36,858 nt of DNA from Thermoplasmata archaeon (GTDB lineage Archaea; Thermoplasmatota; Thermoplasmata; Lutacidiplasmatales; UBA184). The notes beneath the pieces are model-generated. The model did not search any database, was not told where the DNA came from, and saw nothing but the letters and a program-made list of their open reading frames with translations. Below, one piece after another: positions 1 to 35,714 of this stretch (positions within the stretch are counted from its first letter, which is position 1; every line of letters begins with the position of its first letter). Location of the stretch: positions 1 to 36,858 of the forward strand of contig JAKIWS010000015.1 of the NCBI GenBank assembly GCA_022749895.1, written 5' to 3'. The translations under genes were made by a program, and so were the position numbers.

Positions 1-285
1 CAGCAGCAGGAGCCGCCGACGGCTGTACCGGTCGGCGAGCACCCCCGCAAAGAAGCCGACCCCGATCGGGGGTACCGCCTGGGCGAGCCCGACCGCGGCG
101 ACCGCGATCGTCGAGCCGGTTTCCGAGAAGACAAGCCAGAGCAGCAGGACGTCCGCGACGCCGAGACCCGCCCAGCTCGCCGTGTTGCCGCTGACATACA
201 ACCCGAACGGTCGGTTCGAACGCAGCGAGGTCGCGGACCCGAGTGCCCCGCGAGATCCCGCCGGCCCAAGTTCGGACGAGGCCAC
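1..285 (-). CDS. MFS transporter, N-terminal part (runs off left edge)
   Basis: Manual minus-strand translation from a GTG at 285: MASSELGPAGSRGALGSATSLRSNRPFGLYVSGNTASWAGLGVADVLLLWLVFSETGSTIAVAAVGLAQAVPPIGVGFFAGVLADRYSRRRLLLL. Contains the MFS TM1-TM2 'G-x-LADRxxRR' loop motif. Not in the ORF track because it is open at the edge. Confidence 0.8.
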   Translation of the reverse strand, partial: MASSELGPAGSRGALGSATSLRSNRPFGLYVSGNTASWAGLGVADVLLLWLVFSETGSTIAVAAVGLAQAVPPIGVGFFAGVLADRYSRRRLLLL

Positions 286-348
286 GGGCGAACTACGGTC
301 CGTCCTCGGGCATGGAACCATCGCTGGGGCGGAACGGGCCGGTGCGAT

Positions 349-1512
349 CTACCGTCGGGCCGCGGACCAGGGCCGGAGTCCGGCCGATCCGCACGTCGGG
401 CAGGCTTTCCAGAACCTCGTTCGGACCACCCGCACGTCGTCGAGTCGCCAGAGGTTCAGGTGGAGGAGCCAACCCTCCTCTTCCCGGCGAAGGCCGGTGA
501 GGAAGTAGAGGGCCCGCAGCGCGCCGTAGTGCCCGGCGATCCCCGCCGTCGGGGCGATGACGGCGTTGTCCGTGTCGTCGGCGAACAGGTTCGCGCCGGT
601 GAACGTCCCTTCCGACCTCTGGCGGTTCGCGAGCTGGTGCTGGAGGCACCTCAGGCACGGGGTACGGCCCGGAACGAAGAGGGCGATCGCGCAGCGGGGG
701 CCGGAGTAGCTGTTCTCGAGCCACGGGGTCCGACTCGCCACGGCCGCGTCGTTCGTCCACAGGAGGATCTCATGAGGGCGGTCCGCCCCGAGCACGAAGA
801 GGTCGCAGTCCTCCAGCAGTGCCGGCAGGTCGCCCGGCGCGTCCACCCGGAGCTTCTCCGCCGTGACGCGCAGATGGGGATTGAGGTCCCGTAGGTGTTC
901 GGCGGCGACCTCCACCTTGGATCGTCCGACGTCCGTCGACCCGTAGAGGAGCTGCCGGTTGAGGTTCGACGTCTCGACCCGGTCCGGGTCGATGAGGCGC
1001 ATGCGCCCTACCCCAGCCGCGGCCAGACTCTCTGCCGTGGCGCCTCCGATCGCCCCCACGCCGAGGATCGTCACGCGGGCCGCCCGGAGCTGCCGCTGAA
1101 GGCTGGCGGCGGTCCGCGGAGTCCCGAGGGTCACCAGCGAGAAGAAGTCGAGATTTCGGGAGTACCGTTCGGATTCCTTCTCCGAGAGGCGGACGGAAGG
1201 GGAATCCCGGTCGCGTCGTTCGACCACCCCGAGGCGCTGCAGTTCGGCGACCGCACGGCGTACCGCGGGGACGCCGAGACGAGGGTGGACTTTACGCAGG
1301 TCGCGTGCGAGAGCCGTTAGGTCGCGGGTTCCGTCCATAAGACCCAGCAGGCTCCAGATCGTTCCCGGCCGGTCATCTCGGAGGGTCACCCCGAGGCCGA
1401 AGACATCGCGGGCGAGAAGGATCTGACCGTTCGGGAGTCGAAACGGCCGTAGCGACCGTTTCGTCGTCGGTTTGAACACTAAGTCCACCCAACCCCAGGC
1501 GGTCTCATCCAC
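349..1512 (-). CDS. ThiF/MoeB/E1-like adenylyltransferase with an N-terminal PqqD/RRE-like or winged-helix domain (MccB/TOMM-maturase-like)
   Basis: 387 aa. ERYSRN, GVGAIGG nucleotide loop, LIDPDRVETSNLNRQLLYGSTDVGRSKV, and paired CLRC...CPTC zinc motifs are typical of the E1-like superfamily. The extra N-terminal ~100 aa (FRLPNGQILLARDVFGLGVTLRDDRPGTIWSLLGLMDGTRDLTALARDL...) looks like the leader-binding domain of RiPP cyclodehydratase/MccB-type proteins. GTG start. Confidence 0.8.
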   Translation of the reverse strand: MDETAWGWVDLVFKPTTKRSLRPFRLPNGQILLARDVFGLGVTLRDDRPGTIWSLLGLMDGTRDLTALARDLRKVHPRLGVPAVRRAVAELQRLGVVERRDRDSPSVRLSEKESERYSRNLDFFSLVTLGTPRTAASLQRQLRAARVTILGVGAIGGATAESLAAAGVGRMRLIDPDRVETSNLNRQLLYGSTDVGRSKVEVAAEHLRDLNPHLRVTAEKLRVDAPGDLPALLEDCDLFVLGADRPHEILLWTNDAAVASRTPWLENSYSGPRCAIALFVPGRTPCLRCLQHQLANRQRSEGTFTGANLFADDTDNAVIAPTAGIAGHYGALRALYFLTGLRREEEGWLLHLNLWRLDDVRVVRTRFWKACPTCGSAGLRPWSAARR

Positions 1513-1625
1513 CTACTGGTGGACCCGCCGGCGTTCAGGAGGGGAGAGGACGCCGCGTCTCGACGGACGGACGTCCTACGTCGGCTCGAGCCGGCGGGAT
1601 CGGTGCGGGGCGAACGACCCCGTGC

Positions 1626-1712
1626 CTACTTCCGACAGGGCGTCGCGAGCGGCGACGTCTTCGCGTGCGTCAGTGGCTCTACCCGGACCCGGATTTCTCG
1701 CTTGTTGTTCAT
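1626..1712 (-). CDS. candidate 28-aa peptide (possible RiPP/microcin-type precursor)
   Basis: ATG..TAG ORF MNNKREIRVRVEPLTHAKTSPLATPCRK, immediately upstream of and co-oriented with the ThiF-like gene. A TATA-like box (ttgatatacc) lies about 55 bp upstream of the ATG. Charged N-terminal half and Ser/Thr/Cys-containing C-terminal half. Confidence 0.4.
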   Translation of the reverse strand: MNNKREIRVRVEPLTHAKTSPLATPCRK

Positions 1713-1762
1713 GGTCTCTGTGCCCCCCGTTTCGCGGGGTGCGAAATGAAATGCTCGCCCCC

Positions 1763-1772
1763 GGTATATCAA
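1763..1772 (-). promoter_or_regulatory. TATA-like box upstream of the peptide/ThiF/MFS cassette
   Basis: Minus strand reads ggaTTGATATACCggg. It is the only AT-rich element between tpiA and the ThiF gene apart from the tpiA 3' T-tract. Confidence 0.45.
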
Positions 1773-11038: not shown

Positions 11039-12085
11039 ATGGAAATCTACCGGGGACGAGCTCCGCTCCGCGTGAGCTTCGCAGGCGGCGGCACCGACGT
11101 CTCGCCGTACCCCGAAGAGAAGGGGGGCGCCGTACTCAACTGCACCATCGACAAGTACGCCTACGCGACGCTCAAGGTCGACCGCAACGGTCGGGGGGCG
11201 ACCTCCGTTCACTCGCTCGACTACAATCTACAAGTTCACTACGACAAGCCGGACGACCTCGTGTACAACGGGGAACTCGACCTCGTCAAGGCGGCCTTGC
11301 GCGTGATGTACCCGACCGGGGAAGACGGGCGACCCCGGGATTCGCTCGAGCTGTTCCTCCACTCGGACGCTCCCCCGGGGACGGGACTCGGAAGCTCATC
11401 CACGATGTCGGTCGCGCTCGTGGGGGCCTTCCAGCGCTATCTCCGCGAAACCTGGACGCCGTACGAGATGGCGGAGTTGGCCTACCGGATCGAACGGGAG
11501 GAGCTGGGGATCAAGGGCGGCCGTCAGGACCAGTATGCCGCGGTCTTCGGGGGATTCAATTTCATCGAGTTCAACGGGCGGCGGACGATCGTGAACCCCC
11601 TCAAGATCGGGTCCGACGTCCTCAACGAGCTCGCGTACCGCCTCCTGCTGTGCTACACCGGAACGAGCCACTACTCGAACGACCTGATCGAGCGGCAGCA
11701 GAAGAGCTACGCCGACCGCGAGGTGAACACCGTCGCCGCGCTCGATGCGACGAAACAACTCGCCGTGGACATGAAGAACGAGCTCCTGCGGGGCAACGTG
11801 GACGAGATGGGCCGACTGCTCGACCAGGGCTGGCAGCTGAAAAAGCAGTTCACGACCGGCATCTCGAACCCCCAGATCGACGCGTTCTACGACAAGGCCC
11901 GCGCCGCCGGGGCCTTGGGCGGGAAATTGGTCGGAGCCGGCGGCGGGGGCTATCTCCTCTTGTTCTGCGATTTCGAGCGACGCGCGAACGTCGCCCGCGC
12001 GGTCAATGACTCGGGCGGCGAGGTCGTTGACTTTACGCTCGTGATGGACGGGGTCCAGGCCTGGCCCGTGCGGTCGAGTTCGTAG
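11039..12085 (+). CDS. GHMP-family sugar kinase, HddA-like (heptose-7-phosphate kinase type)
   Basis: RAPLRVSFAGGGTDVSPYPEEKGGAVLNCTIDKYAYATL, PPGTGLGSSSTMSVALVGAF, KLVGAGGGGYLLLFC. TATA-like ataaacctctt about 35-40 bp upstream. Confidence 0.88.
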   Translation: MEIYRGRAPLRVSFAGGGTDVSPYPEEKGGAVLNCTIDKYAYATLKVDRNGRGATSVHSLDYNLQVHYDKPDDLVYNGELDLVKAALRVMYPTGEDGRPRDSLELFLHSDAPPGTGLGSSSTMSVALVGAFQRYLRETWTPYEMAELAYRIEREELGIKGGRQDQYAAVFGGFNFIEFNGRRTIVNPLKIGSDVLNELAYRLLLCYTGTSHYSNDLIERQQKSYADREVNTVAALDATKQLAVDMKNELLRGNVDEMGRLLDQGWQLKKQFTTGISNPQIDAFYDKARAAGALGGKLVGAGGGGYLLLFCDFERRANVARAVNDSGGEVVDFTLVMDGVQAWPVRSSS

Positions 12086-12185
12086 TCCGCCTCGCCATGA
12101 TGGTCCGCGCCCCCCGACGGTCCATGCGCATCCGTACACGTTCTTATAGGCCCGTACCTGACGGTCGCGCAACTGTGATTCCCGC

Positions 12186-13808
12186 ATGACGGACGGGGTC
12201 GACGACAACGAGGCGCGCACGCTCCGCGCCGTCGGAAAAGGCGCCTCGGTGATGGTGGTCACCACCATCCTGCTGTTCGTCTTCGCCTTCGTCGGCCGCG
12301 TCGCCGTCGCTCGAATCTTCGGTGCGGCGGTCTGGGGGAACTTCAGCATCGGCCTCGCGCTCACACAGGCGATCGCGCTCGTCGCGATGCTGGGCCTCAA
12401 CCAAGCGACGGCGCAGATGCTGGCGTCGCACCGCGACCCGGCGACGCGCTGGGGCATCATCCGGACCTCCCTCTTCTGGACCAGCTTGGGCTCCGTCGTC
12501 GCCTCGGTGGCCGTGTTCTTCTCGGCGAGCGAGCTCTCCTCATTCTTCCACACCACGAACCACCCGCAGCTCACGCTGATCTTCCAGATGTTCTCGGTGA
12601 CGATCGGCTTCACCCTGATGTCGCTCTACCTGGCGGCAATCTTCCAGGGTTTCGAGAACATCGTCCCCAACGCCTGGTTCAATCAGGTCGTAAATCCCGG
12701 CCTGTTCGTCGTCTTCCTCTTTCTGTTCCTCGTGCTCAACCTCTCGTTCTTTGGGTCGATCCTCGCCTACACCGTCGCGAACGGGGTCGCCTTCGGCGCA
12801 CTGGCGGTCTACACCGTCCGCCGTCTTCCCCGGGTGCTGCCCCCCGCCTCGTCGGTGCGGCGCGTCAAGGCGCCCCACAACCTTTGGGGCCTCGCGGTTT
12901 CGCTCTGGGGGGTTACCGCCCTCGCCTTCGTCACCACTTACGTCGACACGATCATCCTCGGGCTCTACAAGCCCTCCGAAGTGGTCGGGTGGTACTCGTC
13001 GGCGACGACGCTCGCCCGCCTTCTCATCATCGGAAGCGGGGCGCTGACCTACATCTACCTCCCCGTCGCAGCACGCCTCGCCCGCGAGGGGGACTACGCC
13101 ACGTTGCGAAGTTCGTACGTGACGACCACGCGGTGGACGCTCGTCTTCACCGTGCCGCTGTTCCTTTTGTTCGCCTTCCTTCCGGATCAGTCGATGGGAG
13201 CGGTGTTCGGAAGCTCGTTCGTCCCGGGAGCCGCCGCGCTCGCGATCCTCACGTGGGGGTCGATCATCTCCGTGATGTTCGGACCGGTCAACGCCACGCA
13301 GGCGGGACTCGGGAAAGGTCGGATCCTCCTCGTTGCCGCCGCCGTGGCCGCGAGCTCCAACATCGCCCTGAGCTTCGCTCTGATCCCGACCTACGGGATC
13401 CTCGGGGCGGCCATCGCCTGGACCGTCGCCCGCGTCGTCTATCCCGGAGTGGGGCTGCTCGCCCTGATCCGGGAGGACCACATCTCCCCGTTCCAGCGCT
13501 CGCTGCTGCTCCCGATGGGGGTCGCCCTGGGGATCGGGCTACCGCTGTTCATCGGTGTCGACCTTTTGGAGCCGCACTATTGGATCGTATTCCCGATGTA
13601 TTTCGTCGGGGCGATCGTCTTCGTGTTCGCCCTCTTTGCGACCCGAAGCCTCCATTCCGGGGACCTGCTCGTGGCGCGGCACCTCGAGCGCCTGGTGGGA
13701 CGGCCGATGCCGAAGCTCTGGACGTTCCTGGAGCGGTTCGTAGAGACCAAGCCCGCCGCGGCCGTCGCGAGCACGGCCACGTGGCCGGGTCCCCGCACCG
13801 AACGTTGA
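12186..13808 (+). CDS. polysaccharide/oligosaccharide flippase (Wzx/MATE-like)
   Basis: 12-14 predicted TM helices, FVGRVAVARIFGAAVWGNFSIGLALTQAIALVAMLGL; TATA-like cttatagg near 12143. Stop overlaps the start of the next gene. Confidence 0.85.
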   Translation: MTDGVDDNEARTLRAVGKGASVMVVTTILLFVFAFVGRVAVARIFGAAVWGNFSIGLALTQAIALVAMLGLNQATAQMLASHRDPATRWGIIRTSLFWTSLGSVVASVAVFFSASELSSFFHTTNHPQLTLIFQMFSVTIGFTLMSLYLAAIFQGFENIVPNAWFNQVVNPGLFVVFLFLFLVLNLSFFGSILAYTVANGVAFGALAVYTVRRLPRVLPPASSVRRVKAPHNLWGLAVSLWGVTALAFVTTYVDTIILGLYKPSEVVGWYSSATTLARLLIIGSGALTYIYLPVAARLAREGDYATLRSSYVTTTRWTLVFTVPLFLLFAFLPDQSMGAVFGSSFVPGAAALAILTWGSIISVMFGPVNATQAGLGKGRILLVAAAVAASSNIALSFALIPTYGILGAAIAWTVARVVYPGVGLLALIREDHISPFQRSLLLPMGVALGIGLPLFIGVDLLEPHYWIVFPMYFVGAIVFVFALFATRSLHSGDLLVARHLERLVGRPMPKLWTFLERFVETKPAAAVASTATWPGPRTER

Positions 13809-15001
13809 TGAAACCGATCGTCGTGTTCGTCCCGCTGCCGCCCTCGTACCGGGGCGGAACGGAGGAGTACGCCTACCGGGTGGCGGCGAGGGTCGCCACC
13901 GTGTGGCCGGTGCGCGTGGTCACGACGTCGGTACGGTGGTCACCCGGGTCGAGCGTGGTCCCAACGGGCCAGGCCGCCGTCGAGCGCGTGCCGGCGCGCG
14001 AGATCTTCCAGCGGCCCCTCGTCACGACTCGATCGGCGAAGCGGCGACTCCGCGAACTCGCCCGGAGCGCCAGCCTGGTCCATGTGCACATGCCGTTCCC
14101 TTTGGTCGAGAGGTGGGTCGCGCAATGGGCGCACGAAGCTGGGATCCCTCTGGTCCTGACCTACCACATGGACGCGGACTTCGCGGGGGCGAGCGGCCGA
14201 CGGTCGGGGGACATCGTCACGGCGGCGTATCGAGCGTGGTCCGCCCGGCCCGCACTGCGCCGAGCCGCGGCGATCGTCTCGAACAGCCGCGGTTATGCGG
14301 AAACCTCTCCGGTACTGCGCGAGTACCTCGGGAAGGTTCACACGATCGCCAAGGGGATCGACCCCCAACGCTTCGGTTTGAGCGATCGACCCTCGGCCCC
14401 CCCGGCCGCTCCGAATGTCCCGTTGGACCGGGAGGGATCTGCGGGGAAGCGCGTCCTGTTCGTGGGTCGCTTCGTCCCGTACAAGGGGATCCCGGTCCTG
14501 CTCGAGGCCGTCGACCACTTGCGAAACCAAGGAACGGGGGTGCAGCTCTTGCTGGCCGGCCGGGGACCCGAGGAGTCACGACTCCGGGAACTAGTCGCGA
14601 GACTGGGGCTCGGCGACGTCGTTCGCTTCCTCGGGTTCGTTCCCGACGGGGAGCTCGCCGCCCTCTACCGGGGGGCGGACGTGGTGGTTTGCGCGTCGGC
14701 CGGTCGGCTCGAAAGCACTCCGACGACCCTCGAGGAGGCGGCAGCGCTCGGGGTACCGATCGTCGGATCGTCGCTCCCGGGCGCCGACGAATCGCTGCCG
14801 AACGACGGAGTCCACGGCCGACTGGTGCCGCCGGGGGACCCCGACGCTCTCGCCCGGGCGATCGGGGAATTGCTCCTAGCCCAGCGGCCGCCCGCGCGTT
14901 CGAGCCCGAGGACTTGGCAGGACACCGGGGAGGCCTACATCGAGCTTTTCCGGGGTCTGCTCCCGCCGGGGCGCCTGGCCGAACGGATGGAGCCGACGTA
15001 A
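13808..15001 (+). CDS. glycosyltransferase family 4 (GT4)
   Basis: ATG overlaps the TGA of the flippase (TGATG at 13806-13810). MKPIVVFVPLPPSYRGGTEEYAYRVA..., KRVLFVGRFVPYKGIPVLLEAV, CASAGRLESTPTTLEEAAALGVPIVGSSLPGADE. Confidence 0.88.
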   Translation: MKPIVVFVPLPPSYRGGTEEYAYRVAARVATVWPVRVVTTSVRWSPGSSVVPTGQAAVERVPAREIFQRPLVTTRSAKRRLRELARSASLVHVHMPFPLVERWVAQWAHEAGIPLVLTYHMDADFAGASGRRSGDIVTAAYRAWSARPALRRAAAIVSNSRGYAETSPVLREYLGKVHTIAKGIDPQRFGLSDRPSAPPAAPNVPLDREGSAGKRVLFVGRFVPYKGIPVLLEAVDHLRNQGTGVQLLLAGRGPEESRLRELVARLGLGDVVRFLGFVPDGELAALYRGADVVVCASAGRLESTPTTLEEAAALGVPIVGSSLPGADESLPNDGVHGRLVPPGDPDALARAIGELLLAQRPPARSSPRTWQDTGEAYIELFRGLLPPGRLAERMEPT

Positions 15002-15090
15002 CGGTCCTCCGGCCTCCCCATCGGCCCGATCGGCGCGGTGAAACGGGAGCGGTGGTCCAGGGGAGCGAAGGTTTCATTACCTCGACCTTC

Positions 15091-15106
15091 TGCGTACGCA
15101 TACGCA
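15091..15106. promoter_or_regulatory. inverted repeat tgcgta-cgca-tacgca upstream of cysC
   Basis: Perfect 6-bp arms, 4-bp spacer, ending 14 bp before the cysC ATG. Candidate operator or hairpin. Confidence 0.4.
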
Positions 15107-15119
15107 CAGGGTTTGATCG

Positions 15120-15731
15120 ATGTCGCACCACGGCTTTTGCATATGGCTGACGGGGCTTCCCTCCGCCGGAAAGACGACGATCGCGAAAGCGCTCACGCCG
15201 AAGCTCAAGGCGCGGGGATGGAACGTGGAGCTCCTCGACGGGGACGAGGTCCGCACCGGACTCAGTGCGGATCTCGGTTTCGACCGAAAATCTCGTGAGA
15301 TGCACGCCGCCCGGGTCACCTTCGTCTCGAAGGTTCTCGCGCGTAACGGGGTCATCCCGATCGTGGCGTTGATCTCACCGTACGCAACCTCCCGCTCCCG
15401 AGCGCGGACCGACATCGGGGCGTTTGTCGAGGTGTACGTCACGACGCCGTTGAACGTCTGCGAAGAGCGGGACGTGAAGGGTCTCTACAAGAAGGCCCGA
15501 GCAGGTCTCATCCACGAGATGACCGGTATCGACGACCCGTACGAGGCTCCAGAACATCCGGAGATCATCGTCGAGACCGTCGACCGCTCCCCCGACGACG
15601 CCGCCGAGTACATCCTGCGGGAGCTCGAGCGGCTGAAATGGCTGGCCCCGACGAAGGAGCCGGCCGCCGCATCCCCCGTCAGCCATGCCCCGTCGGCTCC
15701 GCGAGCGACCGGCGTCACGGGGAACGCCTAA
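15120..15731 (+). CDS. cysC: adenylylsulfate (APS) kinase
   Basis: [19 protein letters not shown]-loop, [67 protein letters not shown]. Confidence 0.95.
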
Positions 15732-17727: not shown

Positions 17728-20700
17728 TCAGGTGGAGGGAGACTCGTCGGGCGGCGGGGCGTCCTCGGTCCATGGAGCGAACTCGTCGGGGGGAGGAACG
17801 TACTCGCGCGGGGGCAAGTTCGACGATCCGGGCCGGGGCCCGGCCTCTTTGCGACGTCGGACCCGGAGGGCCAGACCCAGCAGGAGGAGCACTCCGAGCA
17901 CCACGACGACCGCCCAGAGCCACCACGGGATCCCGCCGAAGGAAAGGATTCCGGGCCCCGGCCCCGCCGACCCGCCGGACGGCGTCACGGTCAGATTCGT
18001 CGTCGCGGTCGCGACGACCCCGAATCGATCGGCGACGGTCACCCGGATCGCAAAGCTGCCCGATTGGCCGGGGGTGCAGCTCCAGCTGGAGAGGTTCGTC
18101 ACCGCGCACCCGGCGGGAAGCCCGGAGAAGCTGTACGCGAGCGGCGCCGTACCGCCGGAGGCCACCACCGTAAACTGCGTCGTCGAGCCGAAGCCCACCG
18201 TCGAGGGGGAGGCGCCGAACGACTGCACGGTCGGCGGAGGGTTCACCGTCAGGAGGAGCGACGCGGGAGCCGATGCCCCGTCCGCGTCGGTCACGGTCAC
18301 GTTGATGCTGAAGGCGCCGGCGGCGGCCGGCGTGCAGGTCAAGGTCGCCGTCGACGAGGAGGCGCAACCGGCGGGTAGCCCACCGTAGACGTAGGTGAAC
18401 GGCCCGGTGCCCCCCCCGACCGTGACCGTCAGATCGGAGATGATCCCCTGCGTCACGGTCGAGGGGGTCGCGACGAACGACGTCACGCTCGGCGCCAGGG
18501 CGACGGCGAGCGTGACGTTCGCGAAGGCGCTCTCGCCGAGCGCGTCCGTGGCGAGGGCCTCGACGACGAAGGCTCCGCTCGCCGTGGGGGTGCAGCCGAG
18601 CGCGGTGGTGTTCGACGTACCACATCCCCCGGGGAGACCGGCGTACCGGTAGGAGAACGGTCCCACGCCGTCCGACACGTTCAGGGTGAACGAGGTCGAT
18701 CCACCGAGATCGAACTGCGGAGGGGAGGCGACGAACTGGGCGACCGAGGGCGACGGGACGACCCGGAGCGTCAACGACGGGCTGGGGACCGGCACACCGG
18801 CGGGACCGGTCACGGCGACGCGGACGCTCAACGAGCCGACCTGGGTCGCCGAGCACGTGACCGTCGCGGCGTTCGGCGACACGCATCCCGACGGGAGACC
18901 GCTCCATCCGAAGGCGAACGGTCCGGTGCCGTTGGCCGAAGCGCGCAGCTGCACGGAGCTACCCACATCGAGCACGGTGCGCGACGCCCAGATCGGCGCC
19001 ACCGCGTACGGTACGGAGAGCGCGGTCAGCGTGCCCGAGGCTTGGACGGTAAGTCGCGCCGCGGACGACGACGGGGGCGGCGAGCTGACCGGAAGGGAGC
19101 TCGACCATCCGACGAACGTCGTATTGACCCCGGCCGCCGCGGAGATGTTGAACGTCCCCCGCGGGAGATGGACCGTCTCCCCGTTCGCCGCGGCGACGCC
19201 GTTGATCGTCGCCACGATCGGGGACGATGACGTGGCCACAAACGTCACCGAGTAGAGCCGAAGCACAAAGTGGGCCGTCACGACCCCGCCGGCCCCGGTC
19301 ACGGTGATCTGGTTGGCCGCGACGGAGACCGGCCCCGACGTGCTCCAGCTCGTGAACCGATACTTGGCTCCGGCGAGCGCCGTGATGAGATAGGTCCCGT
19401 TCGTGAGGGTCGTGTTGAGACCGCCGTCGGCGAAACTGCTGATCAGATTGAACGCGATCGTTCCCCAGCCGACCGGGGTAACGCGGAACGTGAGGTTGAC
19501 GGGGCCCCGCACCGCGTAGCTCGCCGTGATCGTCACCGACGCGTTGAGCTGCATCCGGCTCTGCGACATGGTGGGCCGGTAGACCCAGGCGGCCTTCGGG
19601 TCGCTGACGTTCCAACGCTTGAACGCGTGACCCCCATACGGGATCGCGTTGAGGAAGTACATTCCCAGGGGTTCGATCGACGACGTCCCGTTGCCGACCG
19701 GGGGGCGACCGCTCAGCGAAACGAGGCCGTCCGTCGCCGGGGTCACGAGGAAAGTGACCTTCGCGCCGAGCGACGCGATCACGGTCGTCGTTCCGTTCTC
19801 CACGGTCACGTTGGCCCAAGGCCCGAAGTCCGTCTCGACCCCGCTCGGACCCGAGCTCCAGCCAAGGAACGTCCAGCCGGGCGCCGGGGTGGCGCGGATC
19901 GGATACGCACCGACCGAGGGATGGTAGACCCCGTAGGAGCTGTGATTGGACGGGAAGTAGGGTACCGGCGCTCCGTTGAAGGTGAGCGTGCCGTTCCCGA
20001 CCCCGCGCACGATGACCGTGGTCCCGAGGAGCGAGGGCGCGTAGGTTGCGGCGACCGAGATGATCGGGGTGGATCCGGTCACCGTCAGCCAGGTGGCGGG
20101 TTCCTCGGCCGACGCGACCCGACCCCCCGCGCCGATCACCGCCCAACCCGTGAAGCTCCAACCGGACGGCGGATACGCCTCGATCGTGTAGAGGCCGGCG
20201 GTCAGGGCGACCGACGCTCCCGACGCGACGGTCGCGATCGGCGTGCGGTTTTTGTTGGCGACGGCGGGCGAGACGGCGACCGCCCCACCCGGACCCGTAC
20301 CGTTGAACCACACGACGGTCGATGAACTGCTCGCGGCGAACGACGCCGAGAGCGAGCCGTCTCCTTGGAGGGAGACCGTCGTCCACGCGCTGTTCGGATC
20401 TTCCACGCGCGCCGCCCCTTGGGCCGTCCACGCGACGAACGCCTGACCGGCCGGGACGAGAGCATGCACGGAGTAACTTCCGAAGGCCAGGGACGGGAAC
20501 GACACCGTCTGTCCCGTCGGCGGCGCGACGACCTGGGAGAGGAAGTAGACGCCGCCCCCGGCGGCCCCGCTGGTCGACAGCCCGAGCGTTGCGTTGTTCC
20601 CGGAACAGGCTGGGACTGAGAAGTTGGTCGCCGGATAGTACGACGTCCCGATGGAATTGAGGATCGGGGTTTGGGAGTACTCCCGGCTCTGACCGAAATC

Positions 20701-22011
20701 GGTCGTCACGCCGGCGTAGTTCGTCGCGCCGAACTCGAACGCGCCCGACGGGCACGCATAGCTGAACCACGGGTAACTGCAGAACGAGCTACCGACCCGG
20801 CTCGTGCACGAGCCGTTGCTCAGCGTCGTGATCGCGAGGCTACCGCCGAGGTCCTGCGTGAACGCGACCTGCGAAGGGGCCACCGGTCCGGAGCTCGTGC
20901 CGAACGTCGGGACGCCGATCCGCCACGGCTGCTGCGTGTCGTTGGCCCAGCTGGCCGGATCGTAGCCGGGGCACGGGACGGCCGGGAGGAGCGGCGTCGA
21001 CGGCGGAACTCCCGGGCTGCATCCCTGGAAGCTGCTGTTGGACGGGATCGACGGGTTGCCTGCGTGCCCGAGCTCGAAACCCATGACGGCAGGCAGCGAT
21101 CCTCCGGACGTCCACAGCAAGCTGTCCTCGAAACCGCTTCGCGCATACGCGGGGTTGAGGGGGTAGCCTCCGGTCGAGTTGAACAATCGGACCGTCGAAG
21201 CGTTGCCGTTGGTCAGGTCCGCGACGCTGACATTTTCCCCGTACGGAGAGCCGGGCCAGCCGGTCATCTGGATCCGCAGGTGGTCCCCCTGGGACATATT
21301 GAGGTAGTCCGCACCGGGAACGCCGTTCCGATACAGCGGCTCCGAAAAGCAGGGATCTTCGCGCCCCGTCGTTCGATCGATCTGCCAGGCGACCGCTTGG
21401 CCTACCCACTGGCCCGGGCTCGTGGCGCTCGGGTGCTGCGGAGTCCGAACGTACCAACTGGAATCCGGGTAGAGCTGCACCTCGAGAAAACAGGCCGACA
21501 TCCAGGCCGTTGGGGCCGTTACCGGGAGCCCGAACCAGACGTCGGAGTAGAGATTTGATTGGTTCTTCGTCGGCCCGCCATCGGTGGGGAGCGTCACGCT
21601 CCACGTGATGTTGCCCCCGCTCCCGGTCGCGTTGGAGTAGAAGCTGAGGCCGGCCTCGTCGTGCCCGCGGCACGGGAGGAGGTACGAGGTCGGGGTTCCG
21701 GTCGACGGCCAGACTCCGTAACACCCACTCGGTCCAACTCCGCCCCCGGCGGTCGGTCCAGCGAGTGGGCGGACCTCCGGGCTTGCCGACCCCCGGGCGG
21801 GCAGAAGGTGGGGTTGGGTCGCGACTGGATCGCTCCCCGCTGTGGCCACCGGTGCGCTCACTCCCACCGCTCGGGGCGCGGCCGGCGCGGGAGTAGTCCC
21901 CCCGGCGACCGGCACGGACACGACGAGCAGCAGGACGACCAAGGTACCCGCGATGAGCGACGCCGAGAGGCTTTCCCGCCGGGAGGGCCCAATGACGACG
22001 GCGGTTTCCAT
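17728..22011 (-). CDS. very large secreted/surface protein: N-terminal extracellular domain, InlB-type B-repeats, PKD/Ig-like CX9C repeats, C-terminal TM anchor
   Basis: About 1427 aa from METAVVIGPSRRESLSASLIAGTLVVLLLVVSVPVAGG (signal). Repeats 'PSGWSFTGWAV', 'PAPGWTFLGWSSG', 'KYRFTSWSTSG', 'TTFVGWSSS', then four 'YxGLPxGC-x9-C' modules, then PWWLWAVVVVLGVLLLLGLALRVRRRK. Confidence 0.85.
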   Translation of the reverse strand: METAVVIGPSRRESLSASLIAGTLVVLLLVVSVPVAGGTTPAPAAPRAVGVSAPVATAGSDPVATQPHLLPARGSASPEVRPLAGPTAGGGVGPSGCYGVWPSTGTPTSYLLPCRGHDEAGLSFYSNATGSGGNITWSVTLPTDGGPTKNQSNLYSDVWFGLPVTAPTAWMSACFLEVQLYPDSSWYVRTPQHPSATSPGQWVGQAVAWQIDRTTGREDPCFSEPLYRNGVPGADYLNMSQGDHLRIQMTGWPGSPYGENVSVADLTNGNASTVRLFNSTGGYPLNPAYARSGFEDSLLWTSGGSLPAVMGFELGHAGNPSIPSNSSFQGCSPGVPPSTPLLPAVPCPGYDPASWANDTQQPWRIGVPTFGTSSGPVAPSQVAFTQDLGGSLAITTLSNGSCTSRVGSSFCSYPWFSYACPSGAFEFGATNYAGVTTDFGQSREYSQTPILNSIGTSYYPATNFSVPACSGNNATLGLSTSGAAGGGVYFLSQVVAPPTGQTVSFPSLAFGSYSVHALVPAGQAFVAWTAQGAARVEDPNSAWTTVSLQGDGSLSASFAASSSSTVVWFNGTGPGGAVAVSPAVANKNRTPIATVASGASVALTAGLYTIEAYPPSGWSFTGWAVIGAGGRVASAEEPATWLTVTGSTPIISVAATYAPSLLGTTVIVRGVGNGTLTFNGAPVPYFPSNHSSYGVYHPSVGAYPIRATPAPGWTFLGWSSGPSGVETDFGPWANVTVENGTTTVIASLGAKVTFLVTPATDGLVSLSGRPPVGNGTSSIEPLGMYFLNAIPYGGHAFKRWNVSDPKAAWVYRPTMSQSRMQLNASVTITASYAVRGPVNLTFRVTPVGWGTIAFNLISSFADGGLNTTLTNGTYLITALAGAKYRFTSWSTSGPVSVAANQITVTGAGGVVTAHFVLRLYSVTFVATSSSPIVATINGVAAANGETVHLPRGTFNISAAAGVNTTFVGWSSSLPVSSPPPSSSAARLTVQASGTLTALSVPYAVAPIWASRTVLDVGSSVQLRASANGTGPFAFGWSGLPSGCVSPNAATVTCSATQVGSLSVRVAVTGPAGVPVPSPSLTLRVVPSPSVAQFVASPPQFDLGGSTSFTLNVSDGVGPFSYRYAGLPGGCGTSNTTALGCTPTASGAFVVEALATDALGESAFANVTLAVALAPSVTSFVATPSTVTQGIISDLTVTVGGGTGPFTYVYGGLPAGCASSSTATLTCTPAAAGAFSINVTVTDADGASAPASLLLTVNPPPTVQSFGASPSTVGFGSTTQFTVVASGGTAPLAYSFSGLPAGCAVTNLSSWSCTPGQSGSFAIRVTVADRFGVVATATTNLTVTPSGGSAGPGPGILSFGGIPWWLWAVVVVLGVLLLLGLALRVRRRKEAGPRPGSSNLPPREYVPPPDEFAPWTEDAPPPDESPST

Positions 22012-22135
22012 CGAGTTCCCGGTGCCCCGGAGGGCGATAGGTCGGGTCCCATTCCTGCGCAGTCTTAAACCTATGCCCGGTGGCGGAATCGATCTCACGC
22101 GTGGGAGGATTTGCCGATAGAGCGGTCGAAACGGC

Positions 22136-23447: not shown

Positions 23448-25439
23448 CTACCGCGACACGAACGGGTCGTGCCGCGCATCCCCAGCGAAGTCGCGCGCGG
23501 CGAGGGGGGAAACGGGATGGCGTCGACGCCGCCGTCGTACGACGAGCCCGAGAACAACCGCGGTGACTACGCCGACCCCGGCGATCGCCGCGATCCGAGG
23601 GGCGGTGAGCCAAGGTGCGCCGCCCGGATTTCGAACGTAGAGCGTCACCGTCGCCTGGGCCGACGCGTTCACCTCGTCGACCACCGAGACGGTCACCGGA
23701 AAGGTTCCCGCGGACGTCGGCGTGCAACGGAGCTTCGACGTATTGGTGGGAGCGCAACCGGGCGGCAGGCCGGCGTAGCTGAAGGTCAGGTGGCCGGTTC
23801 CCCCCGCCACCGTCGCGACGAAGCTCACGTTCGTGGTTCCCGCGTACGCGGTGAACGGTGACGCGGTCAGGCCGGCGATGGTGGGGGCCGGATTGATCGC
23901 GAGGGTCGCGGTCGCGCTCGCCGGCGGGTCGCCCACTCCATCGTGAACGACCACGCTAATCGGAAACAGGCCCGGGGAGGTGGGCTGACAATCGATGGCG
24001 GAAGCGTTGATCGAATCGCATCCGGGCGGGAGTCCCGTCCACGCGAACGTGTACCCACCCGAACCGCCGTACGCCGCGGCCGCTAGGTGGACCGACCGGT
24101 TCGCGTCGGTGGCCGGCGGCTGAAAGCTCGGCGCCGTGACGGCGACCGACCCGGCGCCGAAGACCCACGTGTCCGCGATCGGGAGTCCGGTGGCGGACGC
24201 ACCGCCGAACAGGAGGACCAGGCTGCCCGAGGCGTTCGTTGGGGTCACGCTCGCGACGGCGGGGGTGGATCGGGGGGAGGGCGACGTGGGTACGAGGGGC
24301 GTGAGGTTCGTCCACGTTCCGCTCCGGAGCGCCCACGTGTCCCCCAGGATCCGTCCCGACCGCGAAATGCCCCCGAACACGAGCAGCCCGGCGTTCGTGG
24401 CGTCAAACGCCGTCCCCGCGGCCCATCGGGCCGGCGGCGCCGGTCCGGTCGTGACATTCCGCCAGGATCCGGCCGAGAAGACCCAGGTGTCGTTCTGGGG
24501 AACGACGTTGAACCCCGTTGAGCCGGTCCCACCGAAAAATACGAGATCGTTCGACGACGGGTCAAAGGCCAGGGCGGCCCCGAACCGGCGGGTCGGGGAG
24601 GAGGTCGCCGTGAGGTTAGCGGGCGTCAGTTCGACCCAGCCACCCGCATGGTACGCCCAGGTATCGCGAAGGACGTGCCCGGAGGCAAACCCCCCGAACA
24701 GCACCGCGTAGCTGTCGTTCGCGTCGTACGCCAGCGAGGCGTTGACCCGTCCGGTGGGCGTCGTCCCGGAGCTGGAGGTCACCACCGACCAGTGCCCTCG
24801 GGCGAAGCTCCACGATTCACCGTTGACGCCCCGGGGTCCGAGACCCCCAAACAGGAGGACGTACCCGTCGCCCGTGTCGAACGTCATCGAGGCGAACGCT
24901 AGCGCAGGGGGAGTATTCTTCGCGGTCGCCACGGCCGGCGAGAGGGCGACCCATCCGTTCGACCCGTAGGCCCAGGTGTCGCGAAGCGTTCGACCGGTCG
25001 GATCGAGCCCCCCGAATAGGACGGTGTAACCATCCGAAGGGTCGTAGGTCATGGCGGCACCGCGGCGGGGTGGGGGCATGACGCCGAGACCGGAACTGAT
25101 GTTGAACCACGCCATCGCACCTGCGCCCACTGAACCGACGCTCCGACCGCAGGCGTCAGGTCCTTCGACCCTTGCACACGTCGATCCGGCCTCCGCCGGG
25201 GACGCCGGGCCCGTTGCCGATGAGAACGAAGACGAAAGGGCCCGCTCGGGGCCGGGCGAAGGATGTTCCCGGGCGATCCCGTGCGGGACGGGAGAAGGCG
25301 GGAGGAGGCCCACCAGCGACGCAAGTACGAACAATCCAACGAGCTGCCCGACGCGGCCACCGACGCGGCAGCGAATCCCTCGCCGACGCGCGGGCCGTCC
25401 CGAACGTGGTGGGCGGTCTGGGTTCACGGAACCGATCAA
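23448..25439 (-). CDS. Kelch-repeat surface protein with two PKD-like CX9C modules and C-terminal TM anchor
   Basis: Repeated 'PPxRxGAAMTYDPSDGYTVLFGGLDPTGRTLRDTWAYGSNGW' units; two 'GLPPGC-x9-C' modules; IAAIAGVGVVTAVVLGLVVRRRRRRH. Probable TTG start overlapping the upstream glmM stop. Confidence 0.85.
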   Translation of the reverse strand: MIGSVNPDRPPRSGRPARRRGIRCRVGGRVGQLVGLFVLASLVGLLPPSPVPHGIAREHPSPGPERALSSSFSSATGPASPAEAGSTCARVEGPDACGRSVGSVGAGAMAWFNISSGLGVMPPPRRGAAMTYDPSDGYTVLFGGLDPTGRTLRDTWAYGSNGWVALSPAVATAKNTPPALAFASMTFDTGDGYVLLFGGLGPRGVNGESWSFARGHWSVVTSSSGTTPTGRVNASLAYDANDSYAVLFGGFASGHVLRDTWAYHAGGWVELTPANLTATSSPTRRFGAALAFDPSSNDLVFFGGTGSTGFNVVPQNDTWVFSAGSWRNVTTGPAPPARWAAGTAFDATNAGLLVFGGISRSGRILGDTWALRSGTWTNLTPLVPTSPSPRSTPAVASVTPTNASGSLVLLFGGASATGLPIADTWVFGAGSVAVTAPSFQPPATDANRSVHLAAAAYGGSGGYTFAWTGLPPGCDSINASAIDCQPTSPGLFPISVVVHDGVGDPPASATATLAINPAPTIAGLTASPFTAYAGTTNVSFVATVAGGTGHLTFSYAGLPPGCAPTNTSKLRCTPTSAGTFPVTVSVVDEVNASAQATVTLYVRNPGGAPWLTAPRIAAIAGVGVVTAVVLGLVVRRRRRRHPVSPLAARDFAGDARHDPFVSR

Positions 25440-26812
25440 CGCTCGGCGGCGGTCCGGACGAGCGAGAGGCCGTGGTCGACCAGCGCCCGGGCTCGATCGG
25501 GCGCGTCGCTCTCGGCGAACACCCGGCAGATCGGCTCGGTCCCGGACGGACGGATCAAAAGCCAGCCGTCATCGTAGAACGCCTTGACGCCGTCCAGGGT
25601 GACCACGCGCCGGGCCTCCCCGGTGAGCGTCGTCGTGACCCGGCCTACGACCGTCGCTCGCAGCTCGGGCGCGAGCGGAGTCTTCGCCTTCACGACGACG
25701 GACCGGGGGAGCTCCGCGATCAGCTCCGAGAGGGGCTGCGCCCGGCGGACAAGCACCTCAAGCATCTTCGCGGAGCTCATCGGGCCGTCCCGCGCCGTCT
25801 GGTGGTTCGGCCAATAGTAGCCGCCGTTCTCCTCACCGCCGAAGAGGGCGTGGCGCCGGTCGATCTCTTCGGCGACCGGGAGCGAACCCGATCGCGTGAT
25901 CACGATCTCGCCGCCTTCGTGGGCCACGACCTTCTCGACGCACGTCGAGGACGTGATGCTGGTCACCACCAGGCCCTTAGGGTGCGCTCGGAGCTCTTCA
26001 CGGGCGAACAGCGCGAGCGTGACCTCGCCGGGGACGTAGCGCCCCCGTTCGTCTACGAAGGCGACGCGATCCGAGTCCCCATCGTGGGCGACCCCGAAAT
26101 CGGCGCCGCTCGCGATCACCATCGCCTTGAGGTCGGCGAGGTTTTCGTCGGTCGGCTCGGAGGGATGCCCCGGAAAGTAGCCATCCGGGTTCGCATTGAG
26201 GGTGGTCAACCGGCATCCGAGCGAGCGGAGGAGGCGCGGACTTGTGACCGCACTCGTACCGTTCCCGCAATCGAGGATGACCCGGAGCCGCGCGGCCCGG
26301 ATGGACTCGACGTCGACGTTCTTCTCGATCGAGGAGAGGTACCGATCCACGCCCTGGGAATCCTGCCGGATCGTGCCCACCTCGTTCCAGGGAACCGTCA
26401 CGAAGCGCCGTTCGTGGATGCACCGCTCGATCGCCTGCTCCATCGAACGAGGGATCTCGAGGCCGCCCGCGCCGCAGAACTTGATCCCGTTGAACTCGGT
26501 GGGGTTGTGCGAGGCGGTGACCATGAGGCCGCCGGGAGCGCCGAGGGCCCGCACGTTGTACTGGAGCGCCGGCGTCGGCATTTTCCCCATCTCGAGGACG
26601 TCGACGCCGCGCATCTGGAGCGAGCCGGCGAGGAGGCGGGCCATGCCGTCGCTCGTGGTCCGGAAGTCGGACGCGATCGGTACCGGCCCACGGTTCCCCA
26701 GGCACGTCGCGAGCGCCGAGGCGGCCTGGCTCACGAGCTCGGGCGTGAACTCGGTGCCCACAACGCGCCGAATGCCGTCCGTCCCGAACAAACGCGGGGG
26801 CTCGTCTGCCAT
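25436..26812 (-). CDS. glmM: phosphoglucosamine mutase / phosphomannomutase family
   Basis: LFGTDGIRRVVGTEFTPELV, GLMVTASHNPTEFNGIKFCG, GVAHDGDSDRVAFVDERG, FGGEENGGYYWP, LLIRPSGTEPICRVFAE. Alternative upstream ATG at 26836. Confidence 0.93.
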   Translation of the reverse strand: MADEPPRLFGTDGIRRVVGTEFTPELVSQAASALATCLGNRGPVPIASDFRTTSDGMARLLAGSLQMRGVDVLEMGKMPTPALQYNVRALGAPGGLMVTASHNPTEFNGIKFCGAGGLEIPRSMEQAIERCIHERRFVTVPWNEVGTIRQDSQGVDRYLSSIEKNVDVESIRAARLRVILDCGNGTSAVTSPRLLRSLGCRLTTLNANPDGYFPGHPSEPTDENLADLKAMVIASGADFGVAHDGDSDRVAFVDERGRYVPGEVTLALFAREELRAHPKGLVVTSITSSTCVEKVVAHEGGEIVITRSGSLPVAEEIDRRHALFGGEENGGYYWPNHQTARDGPMSSAKMLEVLVRRAQPLSELIAELPRSVVVKAKTPLAPELRATVVGRVTTTLTGEARRVVTLDGVKAFYDDGWLLIRPSGTEPICRVFAESDAPDRARALVDHGLSLVRTAAER

Positions 26813-26912
26813 CGAACCGGGTCCCGCTGTCCGCATAGGTACGTAAGCCTATCGCCGGGCGGACCCCGCGTCCGTCGCCCCCCATGGGTGGGCGAGTTCG
26901 GGCGGCAACGCG

Positions 26913-27845
26913 TCAGCCGGATCGAACCGCCAGGGCACCGACCAGCGCGTCGGCGAGTCGGGAGGCCAACCCTCCGTCCGGATCGAGCTCGGGGTCGAAC
27001 ACGGTCACCTGCAGACCCTTCGCCATCGGCAAGGAAGCGAGCGCACCCACGATCTCGACGAACGTGCTGAGGTCCAATCCGTTGGGCTCCGGGGTGTCCA
27101 CCGCCGGCATGATCGCGGCGTCCAGGACGTCGGCGTCGATGTGGATCCAGAACGGAGCGCGATCGTCCCTCATTATGGATGCGCGCGCCGCCTCGGCCGA
27201 CCGCGCGGGACCCAACGCACGACAGCGCTGCGACGTGAGGACGCCCCCGAGCGTCCTCCGGACCTCGCCCAGGCAGTCGTCCTCCTCTCGGATTCCGACG
27301 AGGTGGGCATCACGGTCGGCGACGTACGGACGTCGACCTTCGATATCGACGAGCGCCGGCGCCCCACGACCGGTCACCAGAGCCAGGTCCTCGCCGGCGG
27401 CCGCGCCGACGTGCGGTGCATTGCCGAGGTGACGAAAGTCGCTGTGCGCGTCGAGAAAGGCGAGCCCGTGGCGCCCACGACGGCGCAACGCCAGCATCGA
27501 CCCGAGAAGAATGCTGCAATCCCCCCCGAGTACGACCGGGAACCCCCCATCCGCGACGATTGACCCGATCCGGTCCGCAAGTTGGACGGAGTACCGGGCG
27601 ATCGCCGCCCCGTTCCGTACGCCCGAGCCGGGAGACCAGGTCGCGTCGTACGCCGGGGGCGCGACGGTCCCGGCGTCGTCGGCGCCGATCCCTTCCCGCA
27701 GACCTGCTGCCCGCAGCGCGCTCGCGAGGCGCCAACACCCGGGCACGCGCCCAGGGGAGGGAGGCCGGAGCCCGAGATTCGACGGAGCATCGAGGAGGAC
27801 GTACCGCCGGCCGGAGGCTCGCTCGTCAGTTGAACGGGAGTTCAC
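26913..27845 (-). CDS. arginase/agmatinase/formiminoglutamase family hydrolase
   Basis: FPVVLGGDCSILLGSMLALRRRGRHGLAFLDAHSDFR and FWIHIDADVLDAAIMPAVDTPEPNGLDLSTFVEIV, the manganese-binding motifs of the ureohydrolase family. GTG start. Confidence 0.88.
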   Translation of the reverse strand: MNSRSTDERASGRRYVLLDAPSNLGLRPPSPGRVPGCWRLASALRAAGLREGIGADDAGTVAPPAYDATWSPGSGVRNGAAIARYSVQLADRIGSIVADGGFPVVLGGDCSILLGSMLALRRRGRHGLAFLDAHSDFRHLGNAPHVGAAAGEDLALVTGRGAPALVDIEGRRPYVADRDAHLVGIREEDDCLGEVRRTLGGVLTSQRCRALGPARSAEAARASIMRDDRAPFWIHIDADVLDAAIMPAVDTPEPNGLDLSTFVEIVGALASLPMAKGLQVTVFDPELDPDGGLASRLADALVGALAVRSG

Positions 27846-27990
27846 GCGCGCGCTCCTTGATCGTGGTCGGGCTCGCCGTGAACTGGCGGTCGACGCGCCC
27901 GGCCGAGGAGAGGTCGCGAGTGACCGAGACGGGAGACGCGGTAAATAGGGCGGCCTCTCGGGTTCGAGCGAGGAGTCGGACTGCGTTCAC

Positions 27991-29382
27991 ATGCCGCGTA
28001 GGATGATCGTCATCGGCCTCGACTCCGCCTCCCCCGAGTACCTATTCGGGCGCTGCCTTCCGTTCATGCCCAACGTACGACGGCTTCTGGGTTCGGGGGT
28101 GCACGGGGCGCTCCGAACGACCGACCCGCCGATCTCGATCCCCGCGTGGGCGGTCATGTTCACCGGGATCGATCCGGGCTCCCTGGGATTCTACGGCTTC
28201 CGCCACCGCCGGGATCACTCGTACACCGACACGTACGGTCCTACCTCCGACCTGCTCCCCGTGCCCAGCTTCTGGAAGCTCCTCTCCGACCGCGGCCGCC
28301 GGGTCTGCGTCGTGGGGATGCCTCCCGGGTACCCCGCCCCGGCGGTCAACGGACTCTACGTTTCCGACTTCCTCACCCCCCCGGGCGGACCCGAAGCCAC
28401 CTTTCCGCGGTCGCTCGGAGCCGAGCTCGAGACGAAGTTCGGACCGTACGTCTTTGACGTCACGTTCCGCGCGGAAGAACGCCAGCAGCTCTACCGCGAC
28501 CTCGTGGCGATGACCCAGCAACATTTCGCCGTCGCCGAGGAGCTCTACCTCCGGGAGCCGTGGGACGTGTTTGGGATCCACGAGGTCGGGACCGACCGGC
28601 TGCACCACGCCTACACGCAGTACTTCGACCCGTCGCACCACAGCTACGTCGCCGGGAATCCGTTCGAGCACGTCCTCGAAGACTACTACCGCATGCTCGA
28701 CCGCTCGATCGGTCGGCTCGTCGCCCACGCCGACCCGGAGACACTCATCGTTATCGCGTCCGACCACGGGAGCATGCCGATGGAGGGATGCTTCTGCATC
28801 AACCAGTGGTTGGTCGAGCACGGCTACCTCGTCCTGCGCCAGCCGGTCTCGTCACCGATCACCTTGGAGAAGGCCGGGGTCGACTGGAGCCGAACCCGCG
28901 TGTGGGGCGCGGGAGGGTACTACGCCCGTCTCTTCCTCAACCTCCGGGGCCGGGAGGCGCACGGCATTGTCGACCCGACGGAAGTTCCCGCCCTCAAGCA
29001 CCGCCTTCGACAGGAGCTCGGGCAGCTCCGCGGTCCGGACGGCGGAGCGATGCCCACGCAGGTGCTCGAGCCCGCCGAGCTCTACCGAGAGGTGCGCGGG
29101 GACCCTCCCGACATGATGGTGTACTTCGGCGAGCTGAAATGGCGCTCGGCCGGGACGCTCGGGCACCCCGGCCTGTTCCTCCGGGAAAACGACACCGGCC
29201 CGGACGACGCCGTCCACTCGTACGATGGGGTGTTCGCGGTGTACGACGCGCATCGGAGCGGCGCCCGTGAGATCCCACGCCAGAACATCCTTGATGTGAC
29301 ACCGACCCTGCTCGCGATGCTCGGCGAGCCTCTCCCCGGGCACCTCCAGGGGGCCCCGATGCGCGACGTCGTCGACGCTTAA
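27991..29382 (+). CDS. alkaline-phosphatase-superfamily phosphodiesterase (type I phosphodiesterase/NPP-like), paralogue A
   Basis: MIVIGLDSASPEYLF, DPPISIPAWAVMFTGIDPGSLGFYGFRHRR, HEVGTDRLHHAY, IASDHGSMPMEGCFCINQWL, DVTPTLLAMLG. Confidence 0.88.
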   Translation: MPRRMIVIGLDSASPEYLFGRCLPFMPNVRRLLGSGVHGALRTTDPPISIPAWAVMFTGIDPGSLGFYGFRHRRDHSYTDTYGPTSDLLPVPSFWKLLSDRGRRVCVVGMPPGYPAPAVNGLYVSDFLTPPGGPEATFPRSLGAELETKFGPYVFDVTFRAEERQQLYRDLVAMTQQHFAVAEELYLREPWDVFGIHEVGTDRLHHAYTQYFDPSHHSYVAGNPFEHVLEDYYRMLDRSIGRLVAHADPETLIVIASDHGSMPMEGCFCINQWLVEHGYLVLRQPVSSPITLEKAGVDWSRTRVWGAGGYYARLFLNLRGREAHGIVDPTEVPALKHRLRQELGQLRGPDGGAMPTQVLEPAELYREVRGDPPDMMVYFGELKWRSAGTLGHPGLFLRENDTGPDDAVHSYDGVFAVYDAHRSGAREIPRQNILDVTPTLLAMLGEPLPGHLQGAPMRDVVDA

Positions 29383-29419
29383 GCGCGCTCGATTCCGGCC
29401 CGTCCGTCCGCGGAGCGAG

Positions 29420-30904: not shown

Positions 30905-30913
30905 GAGCGGGAT

Positions 30914-33298: not shown

Positions 33299-33364
33299 GC
33301 CTACCGTGGGCGCGAGAGTAGACGTTTGCGCTCGGGCGCTCCGCCCGTCGGCTCCAGGCCGTGG

Positions 33365-34762: not shown

Positions 34763-34823
34763 GAGGGGCGGGGGAAAGGCTGGAGTTTAAAGCCTTGCGG
34801 TCAGGCGTAGAATATGCGCATAG

Positions 34824-35579: not shown

Positions 35580-35714
35580 CTCGCAGGATCCGGCGGAGGG
35601 CCGTTCGCGCCGAGTATTTGAGTCGGAGCTTCCGGTGCGCATACCGGCGCATGGGGCTCCCGCCGCGCCCTGCGACCTCTAATACCCGAGCCGTTGTCGG
35701 GCCGCCCGAACCCC

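Follow-up and report, generated by a model that had tools for sequence, protein, structure and literature searches.

The contig JAKIWS010000015.1 (assembly GCA_022749895.1), analysed here over its whole 36,858 nucleotides and called the window, comes from a soil archaeon of the class Thermoplasmata. At its left end it carries three features on the minus strand, all in one orientation: a 28-amino-acid (aa) peptide (1712-1626), an E1-like protein of the ThiF family (1512-349) and, cut by the contig edge, the N-terminus of a major facilitator superfamily (MFS) transporter. In the model described below, the ThiF protein begins with a recognition element (RRE) of the kind that binds ribosomally synthesized and post-translationally modified peptides (RiPPs). 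The features are as follows:

1765..1772, minus strand: TATA-like box TTGATATA in the promoter of the peptide gene; it scores best among the boxes and lies at -60 relative to the ATG
1626..1712, minus strand: putative precursor peptide gene, 28 aa, ATG start, MNNKREIRVRVEPLTHAKTSPLATPCRK (homologs, third-position bias, shared leader motif)
349..1512, minus strand: predicted RRE-ThiF adenylating enzyme (ThiF-like adenylyltransferase, TLAT), 387 aa, GTG start (Pfam, Protein Data Bank matches, AlphaFold2, Foldseek)
1213..1470, minus strand: predicted N-terminal RRE (PqqD-like winged helix), residues about 15-100 (order of elements in the AlphaFold2 model, MccB alignments)
385..1110, minus strand: predicted adenylation domain, residues about 135-376 (invariant residues in 12 archaeal homologs)
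1..285, minus strand: N-terminal part of a putative MFS exporter (MFS_3, 4.2e-6 on the fragment)

This arrangement and the TATA-like box had both been described in the original prediction, which was made from the letters of the window, and both stand. In each of the five loci from the same genus (the window, G025, G010, G246 and G259), the box precedes the ATG of the peptide gene at -59 to -62, with scores of 3.6-7.5 against a background 95th percentile of 3.0. In the same five loci a GC-rich segment, CCC(C/T)CG...CGGGGG (1713-1750 in the window), lies just before the peptide ATG and is a possible hairpin or ribosome-binding region.

The window is the entire contig C14 of its genome (G000; 2.02 Mb, 83% complete, one RRE-ThiF gene) and therefore cannot itself be extended leftward. 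Positions 1-362 are, however, shared with positions 1-362 of a second contig of this genome, C88 (L038), with 341 of 362 bases identical (94%). The overlap is a mosaic, identical at its ends with the mismatches in between, which suggests that the assembly was interrupted within the MFS gene by strain variation in the co-assembled material. C88 supplies the complete MFS gene, together with a convergent gene for an AAA/TPR ATPase, and the module peptide-ThiF-MFS-convergent ATPase of this genome can thus be reconstructed from the two contigs. The MFS start codon is GTG at 285 or ATG at 321.

Conservation of the putative precursor peptide gene

An RRE-ThiF gene is present in only 9 of 103 genomes of the same archaeal family, including that of the window and a more distant member (G202). 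The ThiF orthologs in seven other genomes of the family are 79 to 57% identical to that of the window. Of these, L031 (contig JAKIWE010000001.1, which appears to be G025:C11 itself) belongs to AcS5-107, a Ca. Lutacidiplasmatales metagenome-assembled genome (PMC9287336). A peptide of 27-31 aa is found about 200 nucleotides upstream of ThiF in each of the eight orthologous loci of the family:

Window: MNNKREIRVRVEPLTHAKTSPLATPCRK (leader motif IRVRVEPLTHAKT, putative core SPLATPCRK)
G025: MRTNQAIRIRVQPLTRAKTSPLATPYRK
G010: MNTKENVRIRVEPLTKGQTKPVPSPVRR
G246: MNTRQKVRIRVKRLSKAQTRAVPTPVRR
G259: MSTKQNAGIRLQPLTKAQTRPVPTPVRR
L032 (apparently G242): MVAKAKRIRVKARPIARLPNMPSPCRK
L033 (apparently G238): MVAKAKRIRVKARPVARLPNMPSPCRK
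G311: MTEKPKRIRIKARLLPRNAVPKPGIPSPCRM

These peptides share an invariant Ser/Thr at -5, Pro at -4 and Arg at -2, and end in K, R or M. Across three separate pairs, third codon positions take 35 of the 55 substitutions (binomial p 4e-6 against one third). Because seven other genomes have a conserved counterpart of the frame in this position, and the substitutions show this third-position bias, we conclude on comparative sequence grounds that 1626-1712 is a gene.

A pattern combining the leader with the peptide end was matched, among 693 small ATG-started open reading frames (ORFs) at 13 loci, only by the ThiF-adjacent frames, and by one of 3,949 simulated ORFs; since the pattern was derived from these same peptides, the counts indicate its specificity and are not an independent measure of significance. 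The NCBIfam models for precursor peptides gave no match. A conserved cysteine was considered as the reactive nucleophile and rejected, Tyr or Val replacing Cys in four of the eight peptides. Hairpins follow the peptide stop codon in L032, L033 and G311 (z -2.5, -3.0 and -2.8), but those in the window (z -0.8) and G246 (z 0.1) are not significant; we therefore do not claim a conserved terminator of the kind found in mcc operons.

The RRE-ThiF enzyme

The 387-aa protein matches Pfam ThiF with an E-value of 4.6e-48 but misses all of the curated equivalog cut-offs for MoeB, ThiF and UbaA. Among solved structures, its best match by sequence is MccB, the adenylating enzyme of microcin C (1.9e-27), and it also matches PaaA of pantocin A over residues 14-216 (1.1e-19). 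RYSRN, ADRPHEILLWTN, VPGRTPCLRC and CPTCG, listed in the original prediction as motifs shared with MccB, are all present and align with it.

An AlphaFold2 model was built from a 14-row alignment (pLDDT 81, pTM 0.80). Its N-terminal module has the order b-b-b-a-a-a (E22-25, E30-34, E42-45, H51-58, H65-75, H81-93; blocks mostly with pLDDT 76-87), by which the model identifies it as an RRE fused ahead of the adenylation fold. MccB and PaaA rank first in a Foldseek search with this model. The MccB alignments mostly extend over 351-387 columns and thus cover the RRE, with a TM-score of about 0.7 on the query, whereas matches to ThiF and MoeB cover only about 270 columns. A comparison with structures had been proposed as a check on the RRE, and the outcome favours MccB-type enzymes over sulfur-carrier enzymes.

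Residues N183, R186, Q187, K199 and D244 are invariant in the 12 aligned archaeal RRE-ThiF homologs, as are C286, C289 and C371 of the zinc site; C374 is nearly so. R186, K199 and D244 align with the Arg, Lys and Asp of the MccB ATP site, and residues of these three types are reported to be essential in EnfB (PMC12250964). The eight ThiF proteins of the family form a single clade (support 100/100) and MccB lies on a very long branch; the tree does not settle how this clade branches, at a deeper level, among its archaeal and actinobacterial relatives.

Apparent in-frame stops in two ThiF genes proved to be their natural stop codons, and two bacterial loci from the genome scan (L034 and L035) are thiamine-type ThiF genes and irrelevant here. 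Scans of viral contigs yielded distant ThiF proteins only, which were used as alignment rows. On a 153-kb IMG/VR contig (L070:3686-4831; locus 33% GC), a 381-aa ThiF protein has an N-terminal extension of RRE size.

The putative exporter and the convergent ATPase

The complete ortholog of the MFS fragment in L036 matches MFS_1 (1.7e-33) and MFS_3 (4.1e-23). Peptide, ThiF and MFS genes, together with the convergent AAA_16/TPR gene, are kept in G025, G010, G246, G259, L032 and L033. The outer neighbours of the module vary between groups, and it recurs in several chromosomal contexts.

The AAA/TPR protein of C88 (793 aa) is 72% identical to its counterpart beside the G025 cassette, and the convergent ATPase is likely to be a regulator. 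AAA_16/TPR proteins of 780-790 aa (MalT-like, STAND-type) are encoded at L036:12532-14913, L032:8479-10827 and L038:1403-3784. In every case this gene and the MFS gene converge, and their ends touch or overlap. More distant AAA/TPR paralogs occur elsewhere in G000.

Distant relatives and the shared leader motif

More distant RRE-ThiF genes are found in the same class (two copies in G165, one in G247) and in the window's family (G202). They are followed by a gene for an M50-like membrane protein (Pfam M50 E-values of 0.01-0.06, with a weak daptide-protease match, 6e-7 for G247). ThiF, M50-like and MFS genes all occur together in G202, which bridges the two layouts. Searches of 390 genomes from across the phylum, and of 117 from the order to which G165 belongs, yielded no further RRE-ThiF member. 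The best full-length non-archaeal relatives found are actinobacterial (Nonomuraea, 41% identity, E 4e-70; also Streptomyces, Nocardia and Actinacidiphila), and their ThiF genes likewise precede an M50/site-2-protease-like gene.

A motif scan of 16 loci revealed short peptides only beside such RRE-ThiF genes. These include the actinobacterial peptides MKKKKLEVKIRKLEKIETTINRGGASG, MKKVSKPAQPRNDQPPVVISIRRLDKKETTGLPCSGNGAS, MSKLTKTTAKTPAAAPARIGFRRLERVETTNSPCANAS, MEKIEIRPLDRLETTAQSCPRCA and MEKIEIRMLDKLETTAVCHEDVPCS, with the leader R-x-L-D/E-K-x-E-T-T, and the G202 peptide METNETQSTIAPADRTRKLVVQFRKLERIETSDITGPRNMGGIS. All align with the window leader IRVRVEPLTHAKT, and the motif R-P/K-L-D/E/T-K/R-x-E-T is common to the window's family, other Thermoplasmata and Actinobacteria. 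Precursors in this wider group end in K, S, G or A.

Three tandem peptides in G165 have the same 18-aa leader, residue for residue, but differ in their cores: the leader MAKKIAISIRPAEKWETT is followed by FYITEMPFDAK in one, and the other cores are IFITNMNGVDVK and YYITPLIEDCK. The three tandem precursors at L063:7418-7952, with near-identical flanking repeats and a small hairpin after each (such as GGGAGCTTTTAGCTCCC), are a recent duplication with diversification of the core. A plasmid of Streptomyces sp. NBC_00464 (L112:8431-8631) carries two unannotated peptides with the ETT motif downstream of the ThiF and M50-like genes. In the Streptomyces relatives, a gene for a BTAD-type regulator lies directly upstream of ThiF.

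Proposed function of the cassette

The locus combines an adenylation domain with an intact ATP site, a predicted fused RRE, a conserved precursor nearby and a transporter, which in the more distant loci is replaced or accompanied by an M50-like protease. We consider it probable (roughly 0.8) that these genes form an archaeal cassette for RiPP biosynthesis of the RRE-ThiF kind, and we infer its chemistry and bioactivity. The original prediction of a microcin-C-like or RiPP cassette thus holds as to precursor, RRE-ThiF enzyme and MFS exporter, and is not supported as to microcin C itself, there being no terminal Asn in the precursors and no MccD, MccE or MccF in the neighbourhoods read. Its proposed check, that the peptide frame be kept beside homologous ThiF genes, came out in favour of the cassette in all eight family loci.

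All characterised RRE-ThiF enzymes adenylate a carboxylate, which a nucleophile then attacks (PMC12150305, PMC12250964). By analogy, the RRE of the ThiF protein would bind the N-terminal leader IRVRVEPLTHAKT of the 28-aa precursor, and the ThiF domain would adenylate, at the expense of ATP, the carboxylate at the C-terminus of the short core (...TPCRK). AMP would then be displaced by a nucleophile, for which the candidates are the invariant Ser/Thr at -5, the backbone and the side chain of a Lys or Arg. This would leave the C-terminus cyclised or capped, and the MFS protein would export the product. The convergent AAA/TPR ATPase is the candidate regulator. Since a C-terminal Asn, Glu-Glu, Glu-Cys and Trp-containing ends are all absent, the linkage would be an imide-type closure or something new.

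Several points weigh against this assignment. The ThiF and MFS proteins are assigned by homology. None of the eight MFS-type genomes of the family has an M50 homolog, which leaves the window's subclade without a dedicated leader protease. In addition, no peptide was identified beside the distant ThiF genes of G165:C25 and G247.

The absence of every known ThiF-RiPP acceptor motif also raises a bolder reading, which we advance tentatively and hold to be somewhat short of an even chance: that these loci define an undescribed archaeal and actinobacterial RiPP class, with its own leader motif, a ThiF-activated C-terminal Lys/Arg (or small) residue and a linkage new among ThiF RiPPs (for example, a macrolactone of the five residues Ser/Thr-Pro-x-Arg-Lys). 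Its product might be an antagonistic or signalling peptide that has moved between Actinobacteria and soil Thermoplasmata.

Comparison with known systems

The pantocin A genes are named paaP-paaA-paaB. This system and the related ThiF-MFS plasmid cassettes of Pantoea and Macrococcus share with the archaeal loci a minimal complement of one peptide, one RRE-ThiF enzyme and one MFS exporter. ThiF-MFS neighbours were seen in Pantoea piersonii and Macrococcus bovicus. PaaA matches the window enzyme by sequence and fold, N-terminus included; the two are only distantly related. Pantocin A requires an internal Glu-Glu pair, whereas no family peptide contains EE, and the convergent AAA/TPR ATPase is a feature of the archaeal loci. 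Because the layout peptide-ThiF-MFS is also that of pantocin A, the archaeal locus fits RRE-ThiF (TLAT) RiPPs in general better than it fits microcin C.

Enterofaecin (EnfB), GRC (GrcB) and Ind (IndF) use RRE-ThiF enzymes that adenylate a carboxylate and have similar Arg/Lys/Asp residues in the ATP site (PMC12250964, PMC12150305). The leader motif reported for EnfB, (V/I)RKA, resembles IRV(R/K) here. The acceptor motifs of these three systems (C-terminal WIVI, Glu-Cys and Trp-x-x-Ile) are, however, absent from the archaeal peptides, and the hosts are bacteria with other transporters. The unnamed actinobacterial RRE-ThiF loci of Nonomuraea, Streptomyces, Nocardia and Actinacidiphila share the leader motif with the window's family but have the M50-like protease next to ThiF in place of MFS, and their peptides match no NCBIfam model.

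Alternative explanations

A true microcin-C-type peptide-nucleotide, in which ThiF links the C-terminal residue to a nucleotide by an N-P bond and so makes a Trojan-horse antibiotic, would account for MccB being the best solved-structure match, by sequence and by fold over its full length, and for a gene order like that of mccA-mccB-mccC on pMccC7-H22, with the MFS gene directly downstream of ThiF in both. All reported MccA precursors nevertheless end in Asn, which the N-P bond needs (PMC6495379), and they are mostly 7 aa long. Here the family peptides have 27-31 aa, and none of the precursors (eight from the family, four more archaeal and five actinobacterial) ends in Asn, so that membership in the microcin C group is not supported. 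No MccD-, MccE- or MccF-like gene, and no self-immunity gene of the MccE, MccF or HIT type, occurs among the listed neighbours, to which this search was confined rather than genome-wide. MccB also lies on its very long branch, and its host belongs to another domain of life. We regard this explanation as unlikely. Slightly less probable still is that the 28-aa frame is a regulatory leader ORF (an attenuator) ahead of a ThiF/MFS pair that acts on something else. A short conserved ORF before an operon is the typical layout, and hairpins do follow the peptide in L032, L033 and G311, but not significantly in the window or G246. What is conserved at both peptide ends is the amino-acid sequence itself, beyond codon content; G165 has three tandem copies with a common leader and differing cores; and the enzyme has an RRE. 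The related peptides of G202 and Streptomyces NBC_00464 lie downstream of the enzymes, where attenuation is impossible.

Two further possibilities concern the enzyme. It could belong to the MoeB/UbaA type and activate a sulfur carrier resembling ubiquitin (SAMP, MoaD or ThiS), as its catalytic domain scores to MoeB/ThiF models and no other E1 was found in its own, 83%-complete genome. Such enzymes, however, have no N-terminal RRE, the structural alignments to them are shorter, their cut-offs are missed, and a separate canonical housekeeping E1 is present in each of seven sibling genomes; we judge this improbable. The original prediction had also raised the biosynthesis of thiazole/oxazole-modified microcins, in which an E1-like protein docks with a YcaO cyclodehydratase. 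An RRE fused to a ThiF fold occurs there too, and TIGR03882 does match weakly (9.6e-5, below cut-off). The ATP-site residues are intact, though, and none of the 11 carrier genomes has a YcaO gene, with positive controls detected; this excludes the idea for practical purposes.

Significance

Bacteria make ThiF-modified peptides, some of which are antibiotics, and RRE-ThiF RiPPs are a known bacterial kind. No published archaeal case of such a cassette was found in the literature covered, which did not extend to subscription papers or outside preprints. A survey of archaeal RiPPs describes YcaO, radical SAM, lanthipeptide and lasso types and does not mention ThiF or microcin (PMC12144867), a ThiF-RiPP review does not mention archaea (PMC12250964), and the Ind study mined bacterial RefSeq (PMC12150305). 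With this cassette, the enzymes behind the peptide natural products of archaea would gain a further class. Its substrates are short enough to synthesise, their leader and core can be defined, and a single enzyme gives access in vitro to what may be new C-terminal chemistry. The precursor motif common to Lutacidiplasmatales, other Thermoplasmata and Actinobacteria suggests a wider, as yet unnamed family.

Other features of the window

Judged from the translations, 11039-15731 and 25436-36857 form an apparent surface-glycan or sulfation region. Its genes include a GHMP kinase, a flippase-like membrane protein, a glycosyltransferase, an adenosine phosphosulfate (APS) kinase, an ATP sulfurylase and a phosphosugar mutase, as well as three alkaline-phosphatase/sulfatase-like proteins. 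A putative surface protein of 1456 aa is encoded at 17728-22098 on the minus strand; it contains repeated domains and, at its C-terminus, a membrane anchor.
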